DNA of 32,014 bases from a virus. The position numbers and the translations under genes are program-made. Each line of letters begins with the position of its first letter. Within the stretch, counting starts at the first letter, position 1. The notes under the pieces were generated by a model, which had not been told where the DNA came from, did no database searches, and was given only the letters and a program-made list of their open reading frames with translations. Below are positions 9,589 to 17,635 of the stretch, piece by piece. Location: IMG/VR virus record IMGVR_UViG_3300027779_002373, positions 1-32,014 of that record, one strand, 5' to 3'.

Positions 9589-9663
9589 CTATATCAAGGA
9601 TAACAGGTAAATAGATCCCAGGAGTATCCCTATCCATAGTATTAACATTAATGCTGTCTTCAT
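9589..9663 (-). CDS. Tiny membrane peptide, 24 aa
   Basis: ATG 9663 overlaps the PurM stop as ATGA and has GGAGAG nine bases upstream; 24 codons run to TAG at 9589. The peptide MKTALMLILWIGILL plus GSIYLLSLI is a single hydrophobic segment. Coupled translation and a good ribosome-binding site support it; function unknown. Confidence 0.5.
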   Translation of the reverse strand: MKTALMLILWIGILLGSIYLLSLI

Positions 9664-10610
9664 GTTATGTTCTCTCCATTTACAATAACTGATGATTCAA
9701 ATAAACTCTCTCTTACATCACCAATTACTTTAGAACCACTCATCACACTAAGGGCCACATTACGATCTTTTGGTTTAACAATGACCATCATCCCAATTCC
9801 CATATTAAATGTTGTATACATTTCTTGATGGGAGAAACATGTTTCGATGTCTGTAAAAACTTCCTGTGTAACCTCATGCTTAATATTATAAGTTAAATTC
9901 TTATGTGGTATTCTCTCCAAATTTCTAAATCCACCACCAGTAATATTAATGATAGCAGAAGGTCTAATTCTTGTCATCAATGAGTTAATATCATTACAAT
10001 AAATTTTGGTTGGAAGTAAGATACTTTCACCCATGGCAATATTATCATTACGATATTCTAGTCTATCATATAATGCTGTCCAACCATTTGCATGAAGTCC
10101 ATTAGATTCTAAACCAATAATAACATCACCATCTTCAACTCTACTACCATCTACAATAAAACTATCATTTGGAATAATACCATAAGCTGAACCAGAGATG
10201 TGAAATTTAGTTTCAGTCAATACTTCTGTTTCACCACCAGAAAGAATAACAAAATTATCATTACAAGATTTGATTATACCATCAATAACCTCAGGAACAA
10301 TATGAGCATGATCTTTATCTGTTGTAATGTGATTTTGGAATCCAACAGGATTTGCACCAACACATAACAAATCATTAATGTTCATAGCAAAACAATCAAC
10401 TCCTATAATATCACATGATGAATGGTTTATTATATGTTCTACTTTACTACCAACACCATCTGTTGTTGATGCAAGATATTGTCCATTATGAATGTCAATA
10501 ATACTTGCAAAATAATTTGGTGTTCCAACCGATTGAAAAAAACTAGAACTATTTGAAAATGAATTAACATTTATTCTATCCACGACACTTTGTGTAATTT
10601 CATCTAACAT
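9660..10610 (-). CDS. purM: Phosphoribosylformylglycinamidine cyclo-ligase (AIR synthetase, PurM)
   Basis: 316 residues, slightly shorter than bacterial PurM (about 345). Family motifs: TTDGVGSK at 49-56, VDCFAMNINDLLCVGANP, ILSGGETEVLTE, SNGLHANGW and ITGGGFRNLERIP. The enzyme converts FGAM to AIR with ATP in purine synthesis. PurM is a known auxiliary gene of marine T4-like phages and would raise purine supply for genome replication. AAAGGAG... precedes ATG 10610. It follows the coiled-coil membrane protein gene and ends in an ATGA overlap with a tiny membrane peptide. The GGETA motif of cellular enzymes reads GGETE here, a small change near the active site. Confidence 0.95.
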   Translation of the reverse strand: MLDEITQSVVDRINVNSFSNSSSFFQSVGTPNYFASIIDIHNGQYLASTTDGVGSKVEHIINHSSCDIIGVDCFAMNINDLLCVGANPVGFQNHITTDKDHAHIVPEVIDGIIKSCNDNFVILSGGETEVLTETKFHISGSAYGIIPNDSFIVDGSRVEDGDVIIGLESNGLHANGWTALYDRLEYRNDNIAMGESILLPTKIYCNDINSLMTRIRPSAIINITGGGFRNLERIPHKNLTYNIKHEVTQEVFTDIETCFSHQEMYTTFNMGIGMMVIVKPKDRNVALSVMSGSKVIGDVRESLFESSVIVNGENIT

Positions 10611-10624
10611 TATAAAAACTCCTT

Positions 10625-11212
10625 TTATTTTGTTTTACTCATAGCAGCTAGAGGATTCTCTAATGCTTTTGTAATCTTCCTATCAATTTTTTTCTCTAAA
10701 GTCTCAATCTGAGAATCAACTTTAGTCAACTTATCATCCCATCTTTTTCCTGTTGATGTAATCAGTTCACGAATATCTTTATTAGTAGATGTAATCAACT
10801 GTCTTATCTCACTCTCAGCAGTTCTCATAGCTTGTCGAGTTTCCAAACCATCTGATCTTGATCGTTTATCTATTGCAGAGATTTGATCCATAACTTCCCC
10901 GACATCTCCCTTGATATCTGTCCGAATATCTCTTGCAGTTTCTTGAGCATCAGATACAAGTTCTTTTAATGCACCAAGTTCAGTATTAATTGTAGTTCGT
11001 TGTTCTTTAATTAATGTTTTCATAACTTCTATGCGTTTATCAAATCCAGATAAATCAGGTGCCACATACTTAGATATCTTTGCCTCCATATCTTCGTATC
11101 TTTTGAACAATTCAAACCCACCCCATAATCCACCACCCATAGTTCCTAACAACGAAATTATAATGAAAAGCTTACCACCTGTTGCTTTTATTCCTCCGTA
11201 TTCAACTTGCAT
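10625..11212 (-). CDS. Membrane-anchored coiled-coil protein
   Basis: 195 residues: short polar N-terminus, one membrane segment at about 14-35 (KLFIIISLLGTMGGGLWGGF), then about 150 residues of charged helix with internal repetition (ELITSTGKRWDDKL versus QLITSTNKDIRELI) and a basic end. The topology resembles N-anchored coiled-coil proteins such as inner-membrane spanins or holin-associated proteins, but a spanin assignment is unsupported. It directly follows the IscA-like gene with no strong ribosome-binding site of its own, so it is probably translationally coupled. Similar anchored coiled-coils are common in marine T4-like phages. Confidence 0.7.
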   Translation of the reverse strand: MQVEYGGIKATGGKLFIIISLLGTMGGGLWGGFELFKRYEDMEAKISKYVAPDLSGFDKRIEVMKTLIKEQRTTINTELGALKELVSDAQETARDIRTDIKGDVGEVMDQISAIDKRSRSDGLETRQAMRTAESEIRQLITSTNKDIRELITSTGKRWDDKLTKVDSQIETLEKKIDRKITKALENPLAAMSKTK

Positions 11213-11213
11213 T

Positions 11214-11546
11214 TTACGTCACCGAGAATGATTCGCCACATCCACAAGTAGATGTTGCCATAGGATTTGAAAATTTAAATCCAGTACCACCAAGACCACC
11301 TGAATAATCAAGTTCCATTCCCTTGAGATAAATGATAGCTTTTCTATCTATTATTATATCAAAGGTATCATATGGTATAACAGTATCATCATCACTTTTC
11401 TTTTCTTGTTCCTCTGCTTCACATACATATGACATCCCAGAACATCCTCCACCTTTTACTGCTAGACGAAGATGAAATCCTGTTGGTAAACTTTCTCTTA
11501 TATGTCGATGAGCTGGATTTGTTAAATATATTATATCTTCTGTCAT
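11214..11546 (-). CDS. A-type iron-sulfur carrier (IscA/HesB/ErpA family)
   Basis: 110 residues, normal for the family. All three conserved cysteines are present: GGGCSGMSY with Cys35 and TCGCGESF with Cys101 and Cys103. The GTGFKFSNP stretch is also typical. A-type carriers receive Fe-S clusters from a scaffold and pass them to apo-proteins, especially 4Fe-4S enzymes. Here the gene overlaps the ferredoxin stop by four bases and closes the block of OFOR subunits, NifU-type scaffold and ferredoxin; the natural clients are those phage proteins. IscA-like genes occur in other T4-like marine phages, but not usually with such clients beside them. Confidence 0.93.
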   Translation of the reverse strand: MTEDIIYLTNPAHRHIRESLPTGFHLRLAVKGGGCSGMSYVCEAEEQEKKSDDDTVIPYDTFDIIIDRKAIIYLKGMELDYSGGLGGTGFKFSNPMATSTCGCGESFSVT

Positions 11547-11881
11547 AGATTTGCGTTCTTTCTATCAGGGTTTCTAAAGAGTGAAGTCATATTTGTTAAA
11601 TCATCCAATACTGGAAAATCACTATCAGGATGTAGAGTGACTGCTCTTGCTAATAACACTTCTTCCGTCTCAACTATATCTTCATCTGGAATACAACAAT
11701 CTACGGGACAGACTTCTTGACAAGCTTCTTCTCCATGAAAACCTACACATTCTGTACACAACTCTGGATCAATATAATAGAAATCAAGGTTTTCACCTGA
11801 GCCATCATCTATTGCATCGTTGGGGCATTCTGGTTCACAAACACCACAATTGATACATTCATCAGTTATTATTGTTGCCAT
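11543..11881 (-). CDS. 2[4Fe-4S] ferredoxin, Alvin/YfhL type
   Basis: 112 residues from ATG 11881, preferred over TTG 11887 because AAGGAG lies nine bases before it. Cluster I ligands: CINCGVCEPECP (Cys9, 12, 15, 19). Cluster II has the eight-residue insertion of Alvin-type ferredoxins: CTEC at 42-45, then Cys54 and Cys58 before VCPVDC. Two extra cysteines follow. These ferredoxins work at very low potential. It is the obvious electron partner of the OFOR encoded just upstream. Downstream it overlaps the A-type carrier. The C-terminal 50 residues beyond the fold (EEVLLARAVTLHPDSDF) match bacterial relatives. Confidence 0.95.
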   Translation of the reverse strand: MATIITDECINCGVCEPECPNDAIDDGSGENLDFYYIDPELCTECVGFHGEEACQEVCPVDCCIPDEDIVETEEVLLARAVTLHPDSDFPVLDDLTNMTSLFRNPDRKNANL

Positions 11882-11887
11882 ATTCAA

Positions 11888-12136: not shown

Positions 12137-12577
12137 TTATTTCCTTCTTTCAGCCATTTGTTGTTCATAAGTAAGACCACCAAACGGATGTATTTGTTGA
12201 GTTTGTGACGGGGTATCAGCATAGGCATTAGTAGGTATAACCACAGCCTCTGGAAATACATTCTGTCGTATTGCACGTTCTATCCCTGATAGTGTTGCCC
12301 CTGCTGATGAAGGACAACTACCACATGCTCCTTGATATGAAATAATAACTTCATTACCTCTAACCAAGTCTAATTCCAAATCTCCCCCATCTCCTTGAAG
12401 TGCTGGCCTAATTGCTTTATCAAATAGGGCATCAATAGCTTCGTATTTTTCAACGTCCGACATTACATTATCCATTTTAGTTTCTCCAAATTTTGGAAAT
12501 GGTTTATTATTACCATCTGGTACAAGAACTGGTTTGTGAGTATATCCAACAGGATTGCCCATAGAGTCTTTAATCAT
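12137..12577 (-). CDS. NifU C-terminal-domain Fe-S scaffold (Nfu type)
   Basis: 146 residues. The Nfu domain occupies about 45-115: IRPALQGDGGDLELDLV, then the cluster-binding ACGSCPSSAGATLSGIE with Cys85 and Cys88. Dimeric Nfu proteins hold a 4Fe-4S cluster and deliver it to clients. The first 40 residues (NPVGYTHKPVLVPDG...) and the last 30 are extra and unrecognised. ATG overlaps the stop of the second beta-subunit gene (ATGA), so it is made with the OFOR. With the A-type carrier it gives the block its own late-stage 4Fe-4S assembly, sensible for a cluster-dependent, oxygen-sensitive enzyme. Confidence 0.92.
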   Translation of the reverse strand: MIKDSMGNPVGYTHKPVLVPDGNNKPFPKFGETKMDNVMSDVEKYEAIDALFDKAIRPALQGDGGDLELDLVRGNEVIISYQGACGSCPSSAGATLSGIERAIRQNVFPEAVVIPTNAYADTPSQTQQIHPFGGLTYEQQMAERRK

Positions 12578-13461
12578 ATCTTTGCCAGCTTTGCCTTTTT
12601 CCTATCTGCCTTTTCTTTTGCTTCAATCTCATCTAGGTATGCTTTTGCTCGATCTGAAAAATGTTCTTCAAAACCATAGTTCTTCTTCTCCATATCAAAT
12701 GCATCCTGCATTACATCAGGAGTAGGAATTGAATACTCAATATTGCATGATGTATAAGCTTGAACATAAGTAGAACCAAATTCTCTTGCTATGAGTATTG
12801 CTCGTCTAGTGGTTCTAACTACTCGTGCAGGGTTAGTAGGAACAACTCTAGCGATATAGTCCAATTTAGCAACTTTGGCCAATCCCATCATATCCATTTT
12901 TTCATCTATCTTACCTCTAGGAGACATCTTCATTACTTGTCCCTGTTGAGTCATACCACTTTCCTGTCCACCAGTATTTCCATAAGTTTCATTATCTAAC
13001 ATAATAGTTGCAAACTTTTCGTGTCGAAACCAACTATGCATAAGACCTTGAAAACCAATATCAACTAATCCACCATCACCACACATTACAATAACGTCTT
13101 TCTTTTGATCTGGAAATCTTAATTCTAAACCTCTCTTCAAACCAGATGCAACAGCATTCGTATCACCATAGTTACCATAGATGAATGGAACATTACCTTG
13201 TGATATTGCTAGTCTACCACATCCTGCTGTTCCAACAAAAATGGTATGCTCTGGTTGTGGTAATGCAAGAAACACAAGTCTAATAAATAAAGTCATCGCA
13301 CATCCTGCACACATAGGATGCTCTTCTATTAACTCCTTGAATTTACCCATGTCCGCAACTTTTTTCTTTTTACCGTATTGACCATGTTCAATTAAATCAC
13401 GATATTCAATAGGCAAATGTTTAAAAAATCCAGGTGCTGGTTTTACAGTATCTAAGGACAT
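12574..13461 (-). CDS. 2-oxoacid:ferredoxin oxidoreductase, beta-type subunit (second copy)
   Basis: 295 residues, typical beta length. TPP/Mg motif GDGG at 128-131 with the following DN at 156-157 (LDNETYGNTGGQ). Cluster ligands are in place: CAGC (Cys51, Cys54), TAGCGR (Cys81) and YTSC (Cys239). These features match pyruvate or 2-oxoglutarate:ferredoxin oxidoreductase beta subunits, which carry the thiamine diphosphate and proximal 4Fe-4S cluster. It starts one base inside the end of a related but clearly different beta gene. The C-terminus is lysine-rich (KEKADRKKAKLAK). Intact motifs argue against a decaying duplicate; it may be an alternative specificity subunit or pair with the other beta. 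Confidence 0.93.
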   Translation of the reverse strand: MSLDTVKPAPGFFKHLPIEYRDLIEHGQYGKKKKVADMGKFKELIEEHPMCAGCAMTLFIRLVFLALPQPEHTIFVGTAGCGRLAISQGNVPFIYGNYGDTNAVASGLKRGLELRFPDQKKDVIVMCGDGGLVDIGFQGLMHSWFRHEKFATIMLDNETYGNTGGQESGMTQQGQVMKMSPRGKIDEKMDMMGLAKVAKLDYIARVVPTNPARVVRTTRRAILIAREFGSTYVQAYTSCNIEYSIPTPDVMQDAFDMEKKNYGFEEHFSDRAKAYLDEIEAKEKADRKKAKLAKI

Positions 13462-14393
13462 TAGGCCACCGCCTTTGAAGGATTCTTAAAATTTATACTT
13501 TTCGCAAGTTCTTTTGCAGCTTTCTTCCTTTCTTTCTTATCTGCTTTCAATCTATCTATAACAACTTGTGCTGCATCTGTTATATATTGTCGTTGCACAA
13601 ATCGTCCACCAATTTGTTCTGAATCTTTCATCTCATCTAATCCTTCCATAGATTGTTTACCAATCTCAAGAATACATGGAGTATAGAGTTGAACAAATGT
13701 AGGTCCGACTTCTCTTGCAATCATCACAGCATTCTGAATAACTTCTTCTACTCTGTTTGGTTTACTTACAGTTAACATAACTGCATATGCACACCCAGCT
13801 TCTCTTGCAATCTCAACCAATCTTACTTTTTCAAACTGTTTGCCCATAGGTGCCATCTTTGCAACGAAACCTTTTTGCATCAAACCAGATTCTTGTCCAC
13901 CTGTATTTGCATAGAGTTCATTATCAAAACAAATAGTAGTAAACTTTTCTTGACGAAACCAAGATTGCATGGTCATATCTAAACCAATATCAACCGTCGC
14001 ACCATCCCCTGCTAAAACTATAACATCCTTTTCAACATCAGGAAATCGTTTCTTCAATGTTCGTTTTAATCCAGATGCAATTGCATTTTGATTACCAAAC
14101 AATGAATGAATATTTTGAACAGCTACATGTGGAAACACTAAACTAGTACAACCTGTAGAACCAACAAACACGGTATCTTCAGGTGCAGGTATTGATGCAA
14201 GAATATATCGAAACGCAATAGACTCTGGACATCCTGCACATAATGAATGTTGTTCGATTAATTCTTTAGACGAACCAATATCTTTCCAACCTCTATCCTG
14301 TTTACCATAAGTTGCACTTTCAACTAACTCATGATATTCAGGAGGCATAATACTTGCAAATTCTTCACACAATTCAATCTTTGCTTTGCTCAT
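13461..14393 (-). CDS. 2-oxoacid:ferredoxin oxidoreductase, beta-type subunit (first copy)
   Basis: 310 residues. TPP motif GDGA at 129-132 with DN at 157-158 (FDNELYANTGGQ); cluster ligands CAGC (Cys52, Cys55), STGC (Cys82) and YTPC (Cys240). The ends are charged and lysine-rich. It resembles the following beta gene in order and motifs (for example IASGLKR, QSWFR.EKF and NTGGQESG) but differs at most positions, so duplication is old or each was acquired separately. In the enzyme the beta subunit binds TPP and joins alpha to cleave a 2-oxoacid, handing electrons to ferredoxin. The start codon overlaps the alpha stop by four bases; AAAGGAG precedes it. Confidence 0.93.
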   Translation of the reverse strand: MSKAKIELCEEFASIMPPEYHELVESATYGKQDRGWKDIGSSKELIEQHSLCAGCPESIAFRYILASIPAPEDTVFVGSTGCTSLVFPHVAVQNIHSLFGNQNAIASGLKRTLKKRFPDVEKDVIVLAGDGATVDIGLDMTMQSWFRQEKFTTICFDNELYANTGGQESGLMQKGFVAKMAPMGKQFEKVRLVEIAREAGCAYAVMLTVSKPNRVEEVIQNAVMIAREVGPTFVQLYTPCILEIGKQSMEGLDEMKDSEQIGGRFVQRQYITDAAQVVIDRLKADKKERKKAAKELAKSINFKNPSKAVA

Positions 14394-15655
14394 TTTTTTT
14401 CTCCTTTAAACCCATCTATAAAGACTGCTGTTCTGTGACCAATAACTTTTTTAATTTCATCTCTAATAACCTCAGAGGGCATAGTCATTCCACCTGCAAC
14501 ATGAGGTCCTGCATAAACCCTCTCGTTATTAGGAAGTATAGCTTTTACCTCTCTTGCCATCCATCCAGCAATGTTAAACTCTGGAACAAATATATGGTCT
14601 GCATTTGCTGTTGCTTCTCTAATTTCTTCAGTTGGAAATGGTCTAATAGTTTTAATCTTAACCAAACCAACCTCAATACCTTCCTGTTCTAACAATCGTA
14701 TTGCTTCTCTGCTTTGTGAAACAGCCGTTCCTGATGTAACAATTAATATTTTTCTATCAGTATTAATCTTATCTATCAAACCACCAAGTAATCCTATAGT
14801 ATGTTTTCGTGACCGTTCAACTGCAGCTTTAACCTCTTGTTGCCAAGATGCATGAGTAGCATAACTTATGTAATTAGATTTCATAACAAACGGATCACGC
14901 ATCATTCTTATTGGTGCTGATTCCATATCCATACAAGTAACAGGTGATTTATAAGGATCATATTGTGTTAACGTCAAATTTTCACTTGGTAACTCAACAG
15001 TATCTTTTGTATGTGTTACAAAGAATCCATCACAAACAGTTGCTATTGGAACATGAACATCTGGTTGCTCAGCAACAATAAAACCTTTCAATATAAAATC
15101 AAATAAATCTTGTGCTGTCTCAGCATGCCATATCAACATACCAGTTTCTAACAGATAATGTATTTCTAATGTGTCTGGTTGAATACTTAACGGAGAGTTA
15201 ATACCTCTACAAGTTACACAAACTTGAATTGGTAATCGTGACCCTGCCCACATTGGAAAGTTTTCCATTGCTCTAAGAGTTCCGGGACCTGCTGTAGTAG
15301 TAAACACTCTATGCCCACCAAAAGATGCACCGGCACATTGTCCCATTACTGCAAATTCACTTTCACCTCTAAAGTATTCGTCCAAGTATCCTTCTGCATA
15401 TAATTCACCAATCAATGCAGCTGCTTCACTCTGTGGTGTAATTGGATATGCAACAGATGTTCCAACACTTGCTCGTCTAATAGCTTCTTTGATAACTTCA
15501 CTACCCGTAAAGAAAACAGGTTTTTGTTCTGAATCATAAAACATATCATTTATATCAGTATAAGTTTGACCCTTCGCATTTACTTTTCCAAGATTTTCGT
15601 GAGTCGATCTTATAATCTTTTTTATTTTTTCTTTTTCGGCTTGTGCGTTAGTCAT
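14390..15655 (-). CDS. 2-oxoacid:ferredoxin oxidoreductase, alpha subunit
   Basis: 421 residues. Domain I (about 45-230) has the signature YPITPQS at 70-76 and Arg150 in VTCRGINSP, the position that contacts the 2-oxoacid carboxylate in pyruvate:ferredoxin oxidoreductases. Domain II (about 300-400) carries ILIVTSGTAVSQSREAI and VGLVKIKTIRPFP. Together with the beta genes this forms the catalytic core: pyruvate (or 2-oxoglutarate) + CoA + 2 oxidised Fd = acyl-CoA + CO2 + 2 reduced Fd, reversible. A CoA-binding gamma domain is neither fused here nor encoded nearby. The N-terminal 40 residues are an extension. AGGGGATCGT precedes ATG. First gene of the overlapping OFOR/Fe-S block. Confidence 0.95.
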   Translation of the reverse strand: MTNAQAEKEKIKKIIRSTHENLGKVNAKGQTYTDINDMFYDSEQKPVFFTGSEVIKEAIRRASVGTSVAYPITPQSEAAALIGELYAEGYLDEYFRGESEFAVMGQCAGASFGGHRVFTTTAGPGTLRAMENFPMWAGSRLPIQVCVTCRGINSPLSIQPDTLEIHYLLETGMLIWHAETAQDLFDFILKGFIVAEQPDVHVPIATVCDGFFVTHTKDTVELPSENLTLTQYDPYKSPVTCMDMESAPIRMMRDPFVMKSNYISYATHASWQQEVKAAVERSRKHTIGLLGGLIDKINTDRKILIVTSGTAVSQSREAIRLLEQEGIEVGLVKIKTIRPFPTEEIREATANADHIFVPEFNIAGWMAREVKAILPNNERVYAGPHVAGGMTMPSEVIRDEIKKVIGHRTAVFIDGFKGEKK

Positions 15656-15665
15656 ACGATCCCCT

Positions 15666-16868
15666 TTAATATTGAGAGTTTATCATATCATCCATTGAAC
15701 GATCCGATCCCAAATTAAATATACTACCAAGAGGATCTTCGTAAGAAGGTGACACATATTCTACACTAGTATCATAAAATGCAACATCAGGAACAAATGC
15801 TTCTTGATATGAACTAAAACCTGCATTACCCATAATACCCATCAATGCTAATTTTGTTCCGTCTGTATCTCCACCGGCCATCTGAACTGCTTGTAAAACT
15901 CTTGTGACTATTACTTGTACTGCTTTTGATTTTGCAACTTTAGTTTCTTTTGAATCTTCTTTTTCTTCGGATTCTGATTCAGATTCTTGTTCTTCTACAG
16001 CTGATTCTACTTCAGCAACTGCTGTTTTTACTTCTGCTACTTGTTCTGGTTGACTTGAACTTGATGCCATTCCCGTATTAATTTGTATTTTTTCTATCTT
16101 ACCTGTAACAGTAGGAACCGACATTGTTACTACACCAGCACTAACACTAACAGGTATATTAATATTAGTAACACCTGAAGGTGATGACACATTAACTTGC
16201 ATTGTAGTATCCATTGTATTATCCATTGTATTATCCATTATAGATGTATCAAGTATATCATTAACAGCATTAGCTACTAAATCTAATACAGTATCTTGTA
16301 CTGTATTATTGATCAATTCATAAGTCGCAGTCAACCCGATATTATTTGTTTGGGGACCTCTATATCCACCAGTTAAACTAGTACCCTCAAGAATCAATCC
16401 AAATGTTGCAAGAGAGTATGCCAATGTATTCTCTGGAACAATCAATTGACTAGTTATAGTTTCATATGACTGACCAGCAGATGTGGTAAAATTTTGTGTG
16501 TCTGAATATGTAGTCGTTCCATCTGTTACTTTAATTTGTACTGTAAATGCATCACCACCTACATAATTTCTATCTCTCAATCCAATAGAACTATCCATCG
16601 TAAAACCTTGAAGCATTTGAGCCTCAGTCATAAATGTACTAATATCATTTGTAATATTAAATTTCTTACCATGACTGTCCCAATAAACTATATCGTCATC
16701 ACTACCACCATCTGACCATATATCTGTTCGTGGGTCATAACCACAAGACCCACCAGTTCTTGCACATTCATGTGTTGCTCCTGCATCTTTCTCTGTTACA
16801 TCTTCAGTTGTTTTTGTTTCTGCAAATGCATTAGTAGATAATAAAAGTATAAGTAATAGTTGTAACAT
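15666..16868 (-). CDS. Probable exported/virion protein with signal peptide and repeats, 400 aa
   Basis: Signal peptide LQLLLILLLSTNAFA with an AxA cleavage site. After a cysteine-containing segment (ECARTGGSCGYD) come beta-rich, threonine/serine-rich regions that look like adhesin or fibre folds. A short repeat DNTM-DNTM-DTTM sits near 208-220, followed by a Glu/Ser-rich low-complexity linker (SAVEEQESESESEEKED) near 280-300 and a helical part (TRVLQAVQMAGGD). C-terminal tail is acidic and tyrosine-rich. No family recognised. It overlaps the gene before it by one base (TAATG), and similar secreted proteins occur in marine phage structural gene clusters. Function unknown; surface or virion decoration is a guess. 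Confidence 0.7.
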   Translation of the reverse strand: MLQLLLILLLSTNAFAETKTTEDVTEKDAGATHECARTGGSCGYDPRTDIWSDGGSDDDIVYWDSHGKKFNITNDISTFMTEAQMLQGFTMDSSIGLRDRNYVGGDAFTVQIKVTDGTTTYSDTQNFTTSAGQSYETITSQLIVPENTLAYSLATFGLILEGTSLTGGYRGPQTNNIGLTATYELINNTVQDTVLDLVANAVNDILDTSIMDNTMDNTMDTTMQVNVSSPSGVTNINIPVSVSAGVVTMSVPTVTGKIEKIQINTGMASSSSQPEQVAEVKTAVAEVESAVEEQESESESEEKEDSKETKVAKSKAVQVIVTRVLQAVQMAGGDTDGTKLALMGIMGNAGFSSYQEAFVPDVAFYDTSVEYVSPSYEDPLGSIFNLGSDRSMDDMINSQY

Positions 16869-17635
16869 TATATTTTCTCTACCTCTGCTGCATCTATTAC
16901 AGCAAAACTTGTCATACCAGCAGCTTCTGCATTACTCCACATTTTCTCTGCCTTATCAGGATCACTAGATCGTATGAGTTTTGAGTTTGTTATCTTGAAA
17001 TCATGTATTAGTATCTCGTTATGATTATGACCCATTATATCATTATACGAAATATCATTCTGCATTGCTTTAATAAGAGAACTATTGATTATCTTCTTAG
17101 CTTCTTGATGATAAAACTTAATAAACTCCTTTTTAGTCTTACCATCTTTATCATGTATCCAATTACCTACATCATGCGTAAACATTGATTTAGTTCCATT
17201 CGATAGTATATCAAAATGTTTTATTATCTTTGGGAATATCTTTTGACCAAATTGAAATATTCTTGCATTGAGTCTTGATGATACATTACCATTAGGTGAT
17301 AACCATCTGATACCATTTCTATCTGTCCTAGTATTCACATCATTCTCAAATTCAACAGAACTCTTACCATCTAGTTTGACTAATATTTCACCATCATTAA
17401 GTAGTCCTTTAGCAACACCCTTTGAACCTTTAGTGAAGCCAGAGACATCTACACGTTTACCTTGTAATCGTGCAAGTTTTTTCAATCCCTTGATAGTGGT
17501 AACATGATATACATTTTTTACATCCACTTCAAATTCTTTAAGAATAGCTGGTGATAGTGGTAAATAACCATCAGCCATAAACTGCCACTCTTTATTACGA
17601 TATCTTACATTAACGTATTCTAAAAATGAAATCAT
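16868..17635 (-). CDS. Hypothetical protein with N-terminal YHVTT motif and capsid-targeting-like leader
   Basis: 255 residues. The first residues MISFLEYVN resemble the N-terminal leader of T4 internal head proteins (M-x-x-aromatic-x-x-F/Y). Next, VYHVTTIKGLKKLARLQGKRV followed by VSGFTKGS recalls the first strand and nearby Ser/Thr motif of H-Y-E ADP-ribosyltransferases, though no catalytic Glu is identified with confidence. The C-terminal half has GHNHNEILIHDFKI and ends with SFAVIDAAEVEKI. Related frames are frequent in marine T4-like phages but lack assigned function. AAGGAACAGT precedes ATG 17635. T4 packages its ADP-ribosyltransferase Alt in the head, which would make this an intriguing parallel, but evidence is weak. 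Confidence 0.65.
   Translation of the reverse strand: MISFLEYVNVRYRNKEWQFMADGYLPLSPAILKEFEVDVKNVYHVTTIKGLKKLARLQGKRVDVSGFTKGSKGVAKGLLNDGEILVKLDGKSSVEFENDVNTRTDRNGIRWLSPNGNVSSRLNARIFQFGQKIFPKIIKHFDILSNGTKSMFTHDVGNWIHDKDGKTKKEFIKFYHQEAKKIINSSLIKAMQNDISYNDIMGHNHNEILIHDFKITNSKLIRSSDPDKAEKMWSNAEAAGMTSFAVIDAAEVEKI

Follow-up and report, generated by a model that had tools for sequence, protein, structure and literature searches.

Phage-encoded relatives of the catalytic subunits of POR and OGOR: a candidate subunit-replacement module in probable phages of nitrite-oxidising bacteria

The phage contig IMGVR_UViG_3300027779_002373 is a genome fragment of 32,014 bases, here called the window. It carries one gene for an OFOR alpha subunit followed by genes for two different beta subunits. 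Why would a phage need two betas, and with what do they work? A preliminary description of the sequence had proposed that either two beta types give two substrate specificities with one alpha, or they form one unusual complex, with the CoA-binding function coming from the host or from another phage gene.

Gene content of the module

The module is located on the minus strand (Table 1) and is transcribed in the order alpha, beta-A, beta-B, NifU, ferredoxin, IscA/HesB, a 195-aa protein, and PurM. The genes of alpha and beta-A overlap by four bases, those of beta-A and beta-B by one, and those of beta-B and NifU by four; because of these overlaps, the four genes look like one operon. Genes encoding a head-maturation-type protease, endolysin, and dNMP kinase form one flank of the module, and genes encoding an exonuclease, RusA, ribonucleotide reductase, thymidylate synthase, and primase form the other. 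Scans for promoters and terminators yielded no excess over shuffled sequences.

Table 1. Annotated genes of the module in the window
Feature	Coordinates	Strand	Basis
alpha-A: POR-type (pyruvate:ferredoxin oxidoreductase) alpha subunit, 421 aa, domains I and II	14390..15655	(-)	PF01855, PF17147
beta-A: POR-type beta subunit, 310 aa; TPP site, four [4Fe-4S] cysteines	13461..14393	(-)	PF02775, tree, motifs
beta-B: predicted OGOR-type (2-oxoglutarate:ferredoxin oxidoreductase) beta subunit, 295 aa, intact	12574..13461	(-)	PF02775, host orthology, tree, motifs
NifU-domain protein (Fe-S scaffold/carrier type)	12137..12577	(-)	PF01106
two-[4Fe-4S] ferredoxin	11543..11887	(-)	Fer4 families
A-type Fe-S carrier (IscA/HesB)	11214..11546	(-)	PF01521, phrog_17776
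PurM (AIR synthase), phage nucleotide-metabolism gene adjoining the module	9660..10610	(-)	PF00586/PF02769, phrog_1207

Some less well characterized genes accompany the module. The 195-aa protein (window positions 10625-11212, between IscA and PurM) is hydrophobic near its N-terminus and continues as a long charged region that is probably helical; it is conserved in contig L001 (81%). The products of two genes upstream of alpha (15666-16868 and 16868-17635) had no match in the family search; the former has a signal-peptide-like start and is found again beside the module in contigs L105, L122, and L169. The latter contig (IMGVR_UViG_3300031143_000041) ends inside alpha-A, being 100% identical to the window over 170 aa. 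Its neighbouring genes are more than 90% identical to those of the window, while the gene adjoining alpha is only 77% identical, forming a local divergence hotspot.

The two betas are indeed different and intact, as had been noted from the sequence. They are 42% identical across an alignment of 282 residues that contains three gaps, and in the profile search both matched PF02775, while the alpha subunit matched PF01855 and PF17147. Both retain CAGC, the third and fourth cysteines, GDG-x4-(V)DIG, DNE-x-Y, and NTGGQES. Beta-A thus combines the PF02775 domain with the TPP-binding motif GDGx4(V/I)D of beta subunits. Its [4Fe-4S] cysteines are C52, C55, C82, and C240, including a CX2C pair, and are conserved in all compared sequences; across nine beta-A and nine beta-B from viruses and the compared host copies, four cysteine columns and no others are invariant. 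Beta subunits have been described as carrying four cysteines for the proximal [4Fe-4S] cluster (PMC10052474). The residues following the third cysteine are GCTS in beta-A (GCSS in PFOR) and GCGR in beta-B (GCSGR in the OGOR beta of H. pylori), a difference in weak agreement with the former being of the POR type and the latter of the OGOR type.

The gamma domain PF01558 was found by the profile search neither in the 32-kb window nor in 23 related viral records of 4.5 to 176 kb. In addition, a scan of viral contigs with short exact peptide patterns, two each for gamma and alpha-B (alpha-OGOR), gave no match to gamma-A, gamma-B, or alpha-B; every alpha found in the phages was alpha-A. The phage encodes two of the five POR subunits and one OGOR subunit, and lacks gamma, delta, epsilon, and alpha-OGOR; hence neither enzyme is complete in the viral module, which has neither a gamma subunit nor a fused PF01558 domain. 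As the contig is a fragment, the rest of this phage genome may still encode gamma or alpha-B. The initial observation of no gamma gene and no fusion in the window is upheld, and so is its corollary that the CoA-binding gamma function comes from outside the module, either from the host or from beyond the contig.

One could suppose that the module encodes a gamma-less two-subunit enzyme working without host subunits, either similar to KorAB or acting as a CoA-independent 2-oxoacid decarboxylase. However, in KorAB-type enzymes the gamma domain is fused to alpha, and the viral alpha, comprised of PF01855 and PF17147 only, has no such domain, which makes a self-sufficient enzyme unlikely. Moreover, phages with betas only do not even encode the alpha needed for an alpha-beta dimer. 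Although gamma was found neither in the phages examined nor in the Nitrospira cassettes described below, and two-subunit KorAB enzymes are cited in PMC8115632, we regard this explanation as improbable.

Orthology to two host operons

We searched for relatives of beta-A in one genome per species from 84,980 species, using a mixed beta alignment. The best ones came from Nitrospinota, with up to 89% identity, followed by Nitrospirota. In Nitrospinota, operon A has five genes in the order delta-alphaA-betaA-gamma-epsilon; here a 213-aa protein is equated with delta, epsilon is small and ferredoxin-like, and the subunit names are as in PMC10052474. The corresponding operon-A genes are orthologous to the viral alpha and beta-A, and in the alpha tree alpha-A branches with the operon-A alpha, L026 being the nearest host. 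Whole-genome searches revealed a second operon in Nitrospinota, alphaB-betaB-gammaB-epsilonB, with sucC and sucD located a few genes upstream in all six loci that had enough flank. The viral beta-B is orthologous to the beta of this operon, with identity of 74-83% for most hosts and 97% for MAG FRAM18_bin349. In the tree, beta-A clusters with the operon-A betas, and beta-B with the operon-B betas.

The published annotation of N. gracilis gives POR five subunits and OGOR no delta (PMC3578206), in keeping with operon A encoding POR and operon B encoding OGOR. The former assignment also fits the peptide TPSFFTGSEVIK of the N. marina POR alpha (PMC8115632), as the same string occurs in Nitrospira alpha-A sequences. 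All NCBIfam models scored far below the cut-off for both alpha and beta and did not help to tell POR from OGOR. The assignment of beta-B to the OGOR type relies on the operon context and the N. gracilis annotation, and the activity towards 2-oxoglutarate is predicted.

Judging by the sequences, the orthology of alpha, beta-A, and beta-B to two separate host operons is near certain. Since beta-A is orthologous to the POR operon and beta-B to the OGOR operon, the pair would represent one beta from each of the two rTCA ferredoxin-dependent carboxylases, rather than two isoforms of one enzyme. Of the two earlier proposals, this makes two substrate specificities from two beta types the most likely one.

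Two public MAGs, L041 (Chloroflexi RS820) and L097 (Nitrosospira CMX), contain POR genes of the Nitrospina and the Nitrospira type, respectively, and have probably been misbinned or mislabelled.

The virus of the window very probably infects ocean nitrite-oxidising bacteria of the phylum Nitrospinota, an assignment based on gene similarity. Apart from the OFOR genes, the viral ferredoxin matches one encoded in Nitrospinota genomes with 73-81% identity. The search for CRISPR spacers or prophages linking the virus to Nitrospinia yielded five weak matches in 77 genomes, the one 30-bp match of 93% identity lying outside any repeat array, and revealed neither a spacer nor a prophage. Isolate phages gave only distant matches of 24-33% identity. 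Direct phrase searches of the literature covered, which excludes most subscription journals and preprints, returned no paper naming phages or viruses that infect Nitrospina or Nitrospinota.

Distribution and selection in phages

Three scans of viral sequences with short exact peptide patterns yielded relatives in about twenty further contigs, and a fourth scan yielded relatives of alpha-A. The window and L105 share the set alphaA-betaA-betaB accompanied by ferredoxin, NifU, and IscA, and a 126-kb viral record has betaA-betaB-alphaA followed by ferredoxin. Other phages carry smaller sets: betaA-betaB without alpha in a 24-kb record, betaA with only ferredoxin in a 108-kb record, and betaA as the sole module gene in records of 176 and 89 kb, whereas in L114 and L115 betaB is the only OFOR gene. 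In L111, a T4-like contig with a baseplate-wedge gene, the order is betaA-IscA...alphaA; IscA adjoins the betas in this contig, in the window-type phages, and in the Nitrospira chromosomal cassettes. Another contig with T4-like baseplate genes, L123 (IMGVR_UViG_2786546475_000027), has a truncated beta-A at its end; its record number points to a genome or single-cell project.

This distribution is difficult to reconcile with the other earlier proposal, a single unusual complex of alpha and both betas, as the betas occur singly in several of these contigs and without alpha in the 24-kb record. As the general case across phages, an alpha-beta-beta complex is rejected.

Viral alpha-A, beta-A, and beta-B all sit inside host clades. 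The viral betas are found at several places in the Nitrospinota and Nitrospira clades, and the tree forces at least seven label changes. Among the Nitrospira sequences are the beta-A of L112 and L113 and the beta-B of L017 and L019. Hence, the viral copies were acquired repeatedly, in phages of Nitrospinota and apparently also in phages of Nitrospira. L112 (176 kb) and L113 (89 kb) come from large phages that also encode an RtcB RNA ligase; as their single beta-A branches with Nitrospira, they are probably Nitrospira phages.

The genes are under purifying selection. In comparisons of viral pairs, the betas have dN/dS values of about 0.05-0.11, and alpha has values of 0.12-0.15. The window beta-B and its 97%-identical host counterpart have DNA identity of 86% and pS of 0.58, that is, more than half of the synonymous sites differ. 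Because the synonymous sites are heavily changed while the protein is 97% identical, the beta-B protein is strongly conserved. The close similarity of beta-B to the protein of one host might have indicated recently captured host passengers without selected function, or mis-assembled host DNA. This is hardly credible, as the module has phage genes on both sides, recurs in many phage contigs with the above low dN/dS, and has diverged from that host at the DNA level. The module genes derive from hosts, are surrounded by phage genes, and are maintained by selection, and can therefore be considered auxiliary metabolic genes.

Possible function and related systems

The explanation we favour, with a probability of about 0.62, is that the genes form a subunit-replacement module, whose catalytic subunits would swap into the host POR and OGOR during infection. 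Beta-A, together with alpha-A, would provide the catalytic part of the Nitrospinota POR, with TPP and the proximal [4Fe-4S] cluster, and beta-B that of OGOR. The phage would have taken only catalytic subunits and would rely on the host for gamma with its CoA domain, delta, and epsilon. The phage NifU and IscA could load clusters into the new betas, and the phage ferredoxin could serve them. The newly made betas would replace or supplement host subunits that may be oxygen-labile; in A. aeolicus, both POR and OGOR lose nearly all activity in air (PMC10052474). The conversions of acetyl-CoA to pyruvate and of succinyl-CoA to 2-oxoglutarate would thereby be kept running for phage DNA synthesis, with 2-oxoglutarate leading to glutamate, glutamine, and nucleotides. 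This supply would feed a phage that itself encodes PurM, ribonucleotide reductase, thymidylate synthase, and dNMP kinase. We infer the incorporation of the viral betas into host complexes, their replacement role, and the direction of flux. Replacement of subunits alone does not account for the fact that alpha-A but never alpha-B is carried.

The viral betas might also alter the host metabolism, for example, by running POR and OGOR oxidatively and so producing reduced ferredoxin for phage needs. OFORs are reversible enzymes, and a phage ferredoxin is encoded beside the betas. Still, the shared catalytic motifs of the viral betas are unchanged and we saw no virus-specific change of the active site, so that such a shift has very little likelihood.

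A similar set of genes is found in bacterial chromosomes. Nitrospira CG24D has an IscA-betaA'-betaB' cassette (L099:5623-7843) without alpha or gamma, and a normal POR operon (L085) in the same MAG. Genes encoding peroxiredoxin and thioredoxin are located about 2 kb upstream of this cassette. A second copy of beta-B is present in roughly a quarter of 118 genomes from the family of CG24D. In the 22 cassette loci examined, among them L163:290-2864 and L215-L234, IscA is always upstream and gamma was never found; beta-B is constant by construction, as it was the search query. Four loci have the composition IscA-alphaA'-betaA'-betaB', eight have IscA-alphaA'-betaB', and the rest have IscA-betaA'-betaB', some of these being degenerate. 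Short alphaA' remnants (L227, L232) and a broken betaA' (L233) show gene loss inside the cassette. Several cassettes are on multi-megabase contigs, and the Nitrospira chromosomes carry them alongside complete operons for POR and OGOR. NifU and the window-type ferredoxin were not detected beside them.

In the trees, the cassette alpha and beta-B form one clade each inside Nitrospira, separate from the sequences of Nitrospinota phages. The trees thus reject the chromosomal cassette as the ancestor of the phage module, and chromosomes and phages appear to have assembled the same subunit subset independently. It is possible, though doubtful, that this gamma-less, independently assembled cassette is a real functional unit with one alpha shared by two betas, or else a dedicated repair kit for oxygen-damaged rTCA carboxylases, the principle of which the phages would copy.

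A shared alpha could likewise be proposed for the phages. The module would then encode a compact set of two specificities, alphaA-betaA for pyruvate and a hybrid alphaA-betaB for 2-oxoglutarate or a broader range, both using the host gamma. Two facts agree with this, alpha-A being the only alpha in phages and the Nitrospira cassettes holding the same subset, with alphaA' paired only with betaB' in 8 of 22. However, some phages carry betas without any alpha, and the viral beta-B is 97% identical to a host OGOR beta whose partner is alphaB. Furthermore, the cassette alphaA' retains 51-53 of 53 diagnostic alpha-A residues and has gained none of those of alpha-B, even where it is paired only with betaB' (0 of 53). 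A shared alpha therefore seems unlikely, and we retain subunit replacement as the preferred explanation. The cassette, present in roughly a quarter of the sampled Nitrospira genomes, provides a non-viral system for testing the idea.

If subunit replacement is correct, phages of the ocean's main nitrite oxidisers act on dark carbon fixation, at both ferredoxin-dependent carboxylations of the rTCA cycle, using only catalytic subunits. This would mark the TPP- and [4Fe-4S]-binding beta subunit as the most vulnerable part of both enzymes in aerobic cells, and the old question of how aerobes run an oxygen-sensitive rTCA cycle would become testable. This would be a chemolithoautotrophic parallel to the photosynthesis genes of cyanophages. 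Cyanophage psbA (D1) provides a large host complex with its damage-prone catalytic subunit. The module would resemble psbA in function by supplying catalytic subunits of large host complexes, but here the presumed hosts are dark chemolithoautotrophs, the enzyme is different, two enzymes would be served, and Fe-S carriers are added.

The multi-subunit anabolic POR and OGOR of the rTCA cycle in Hydrogenobacter/Aquifex, Nitrospira, and Nitrospina contain clear orthologues of alpha-A, beta-A, and beta-B, with the same GDGx4(V/I)DIG motif and four cysteines as in the viral betas. Unlike these enzymes, the phage set has no gamma, delta, epsilon, or alpha-OGOR. Among viruses, korB has been listed with viral carbon-fixation genes from contaminated soils, with transfer from Elusimicrobiota to Mesyanzhinovviridae (PMC12615777). 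Similar to the window, this is an OFOR beta on a viral contig, but the available part of that report does not mention a pair of POR and OGOR betas, nitrite oxidisers, or Fe-S carriers. Viromes of oxygen-minimum zones contain viral nifU, ferredoxin-like domains, and other Fe-S assembly genes (PMC8940887); unlike in the window, the nifU is not tied to an OFOR or a host in the portion of the text available. A further close counterpart is the Nitrospira cassette, with the same subunits, the same alpha-betaA-betaB order, an adjoining IscA, and no gamma; yet it is cellular, comes from Nitrospira's own POR and OGOR genes, and is unrelated to the phage module by descent.
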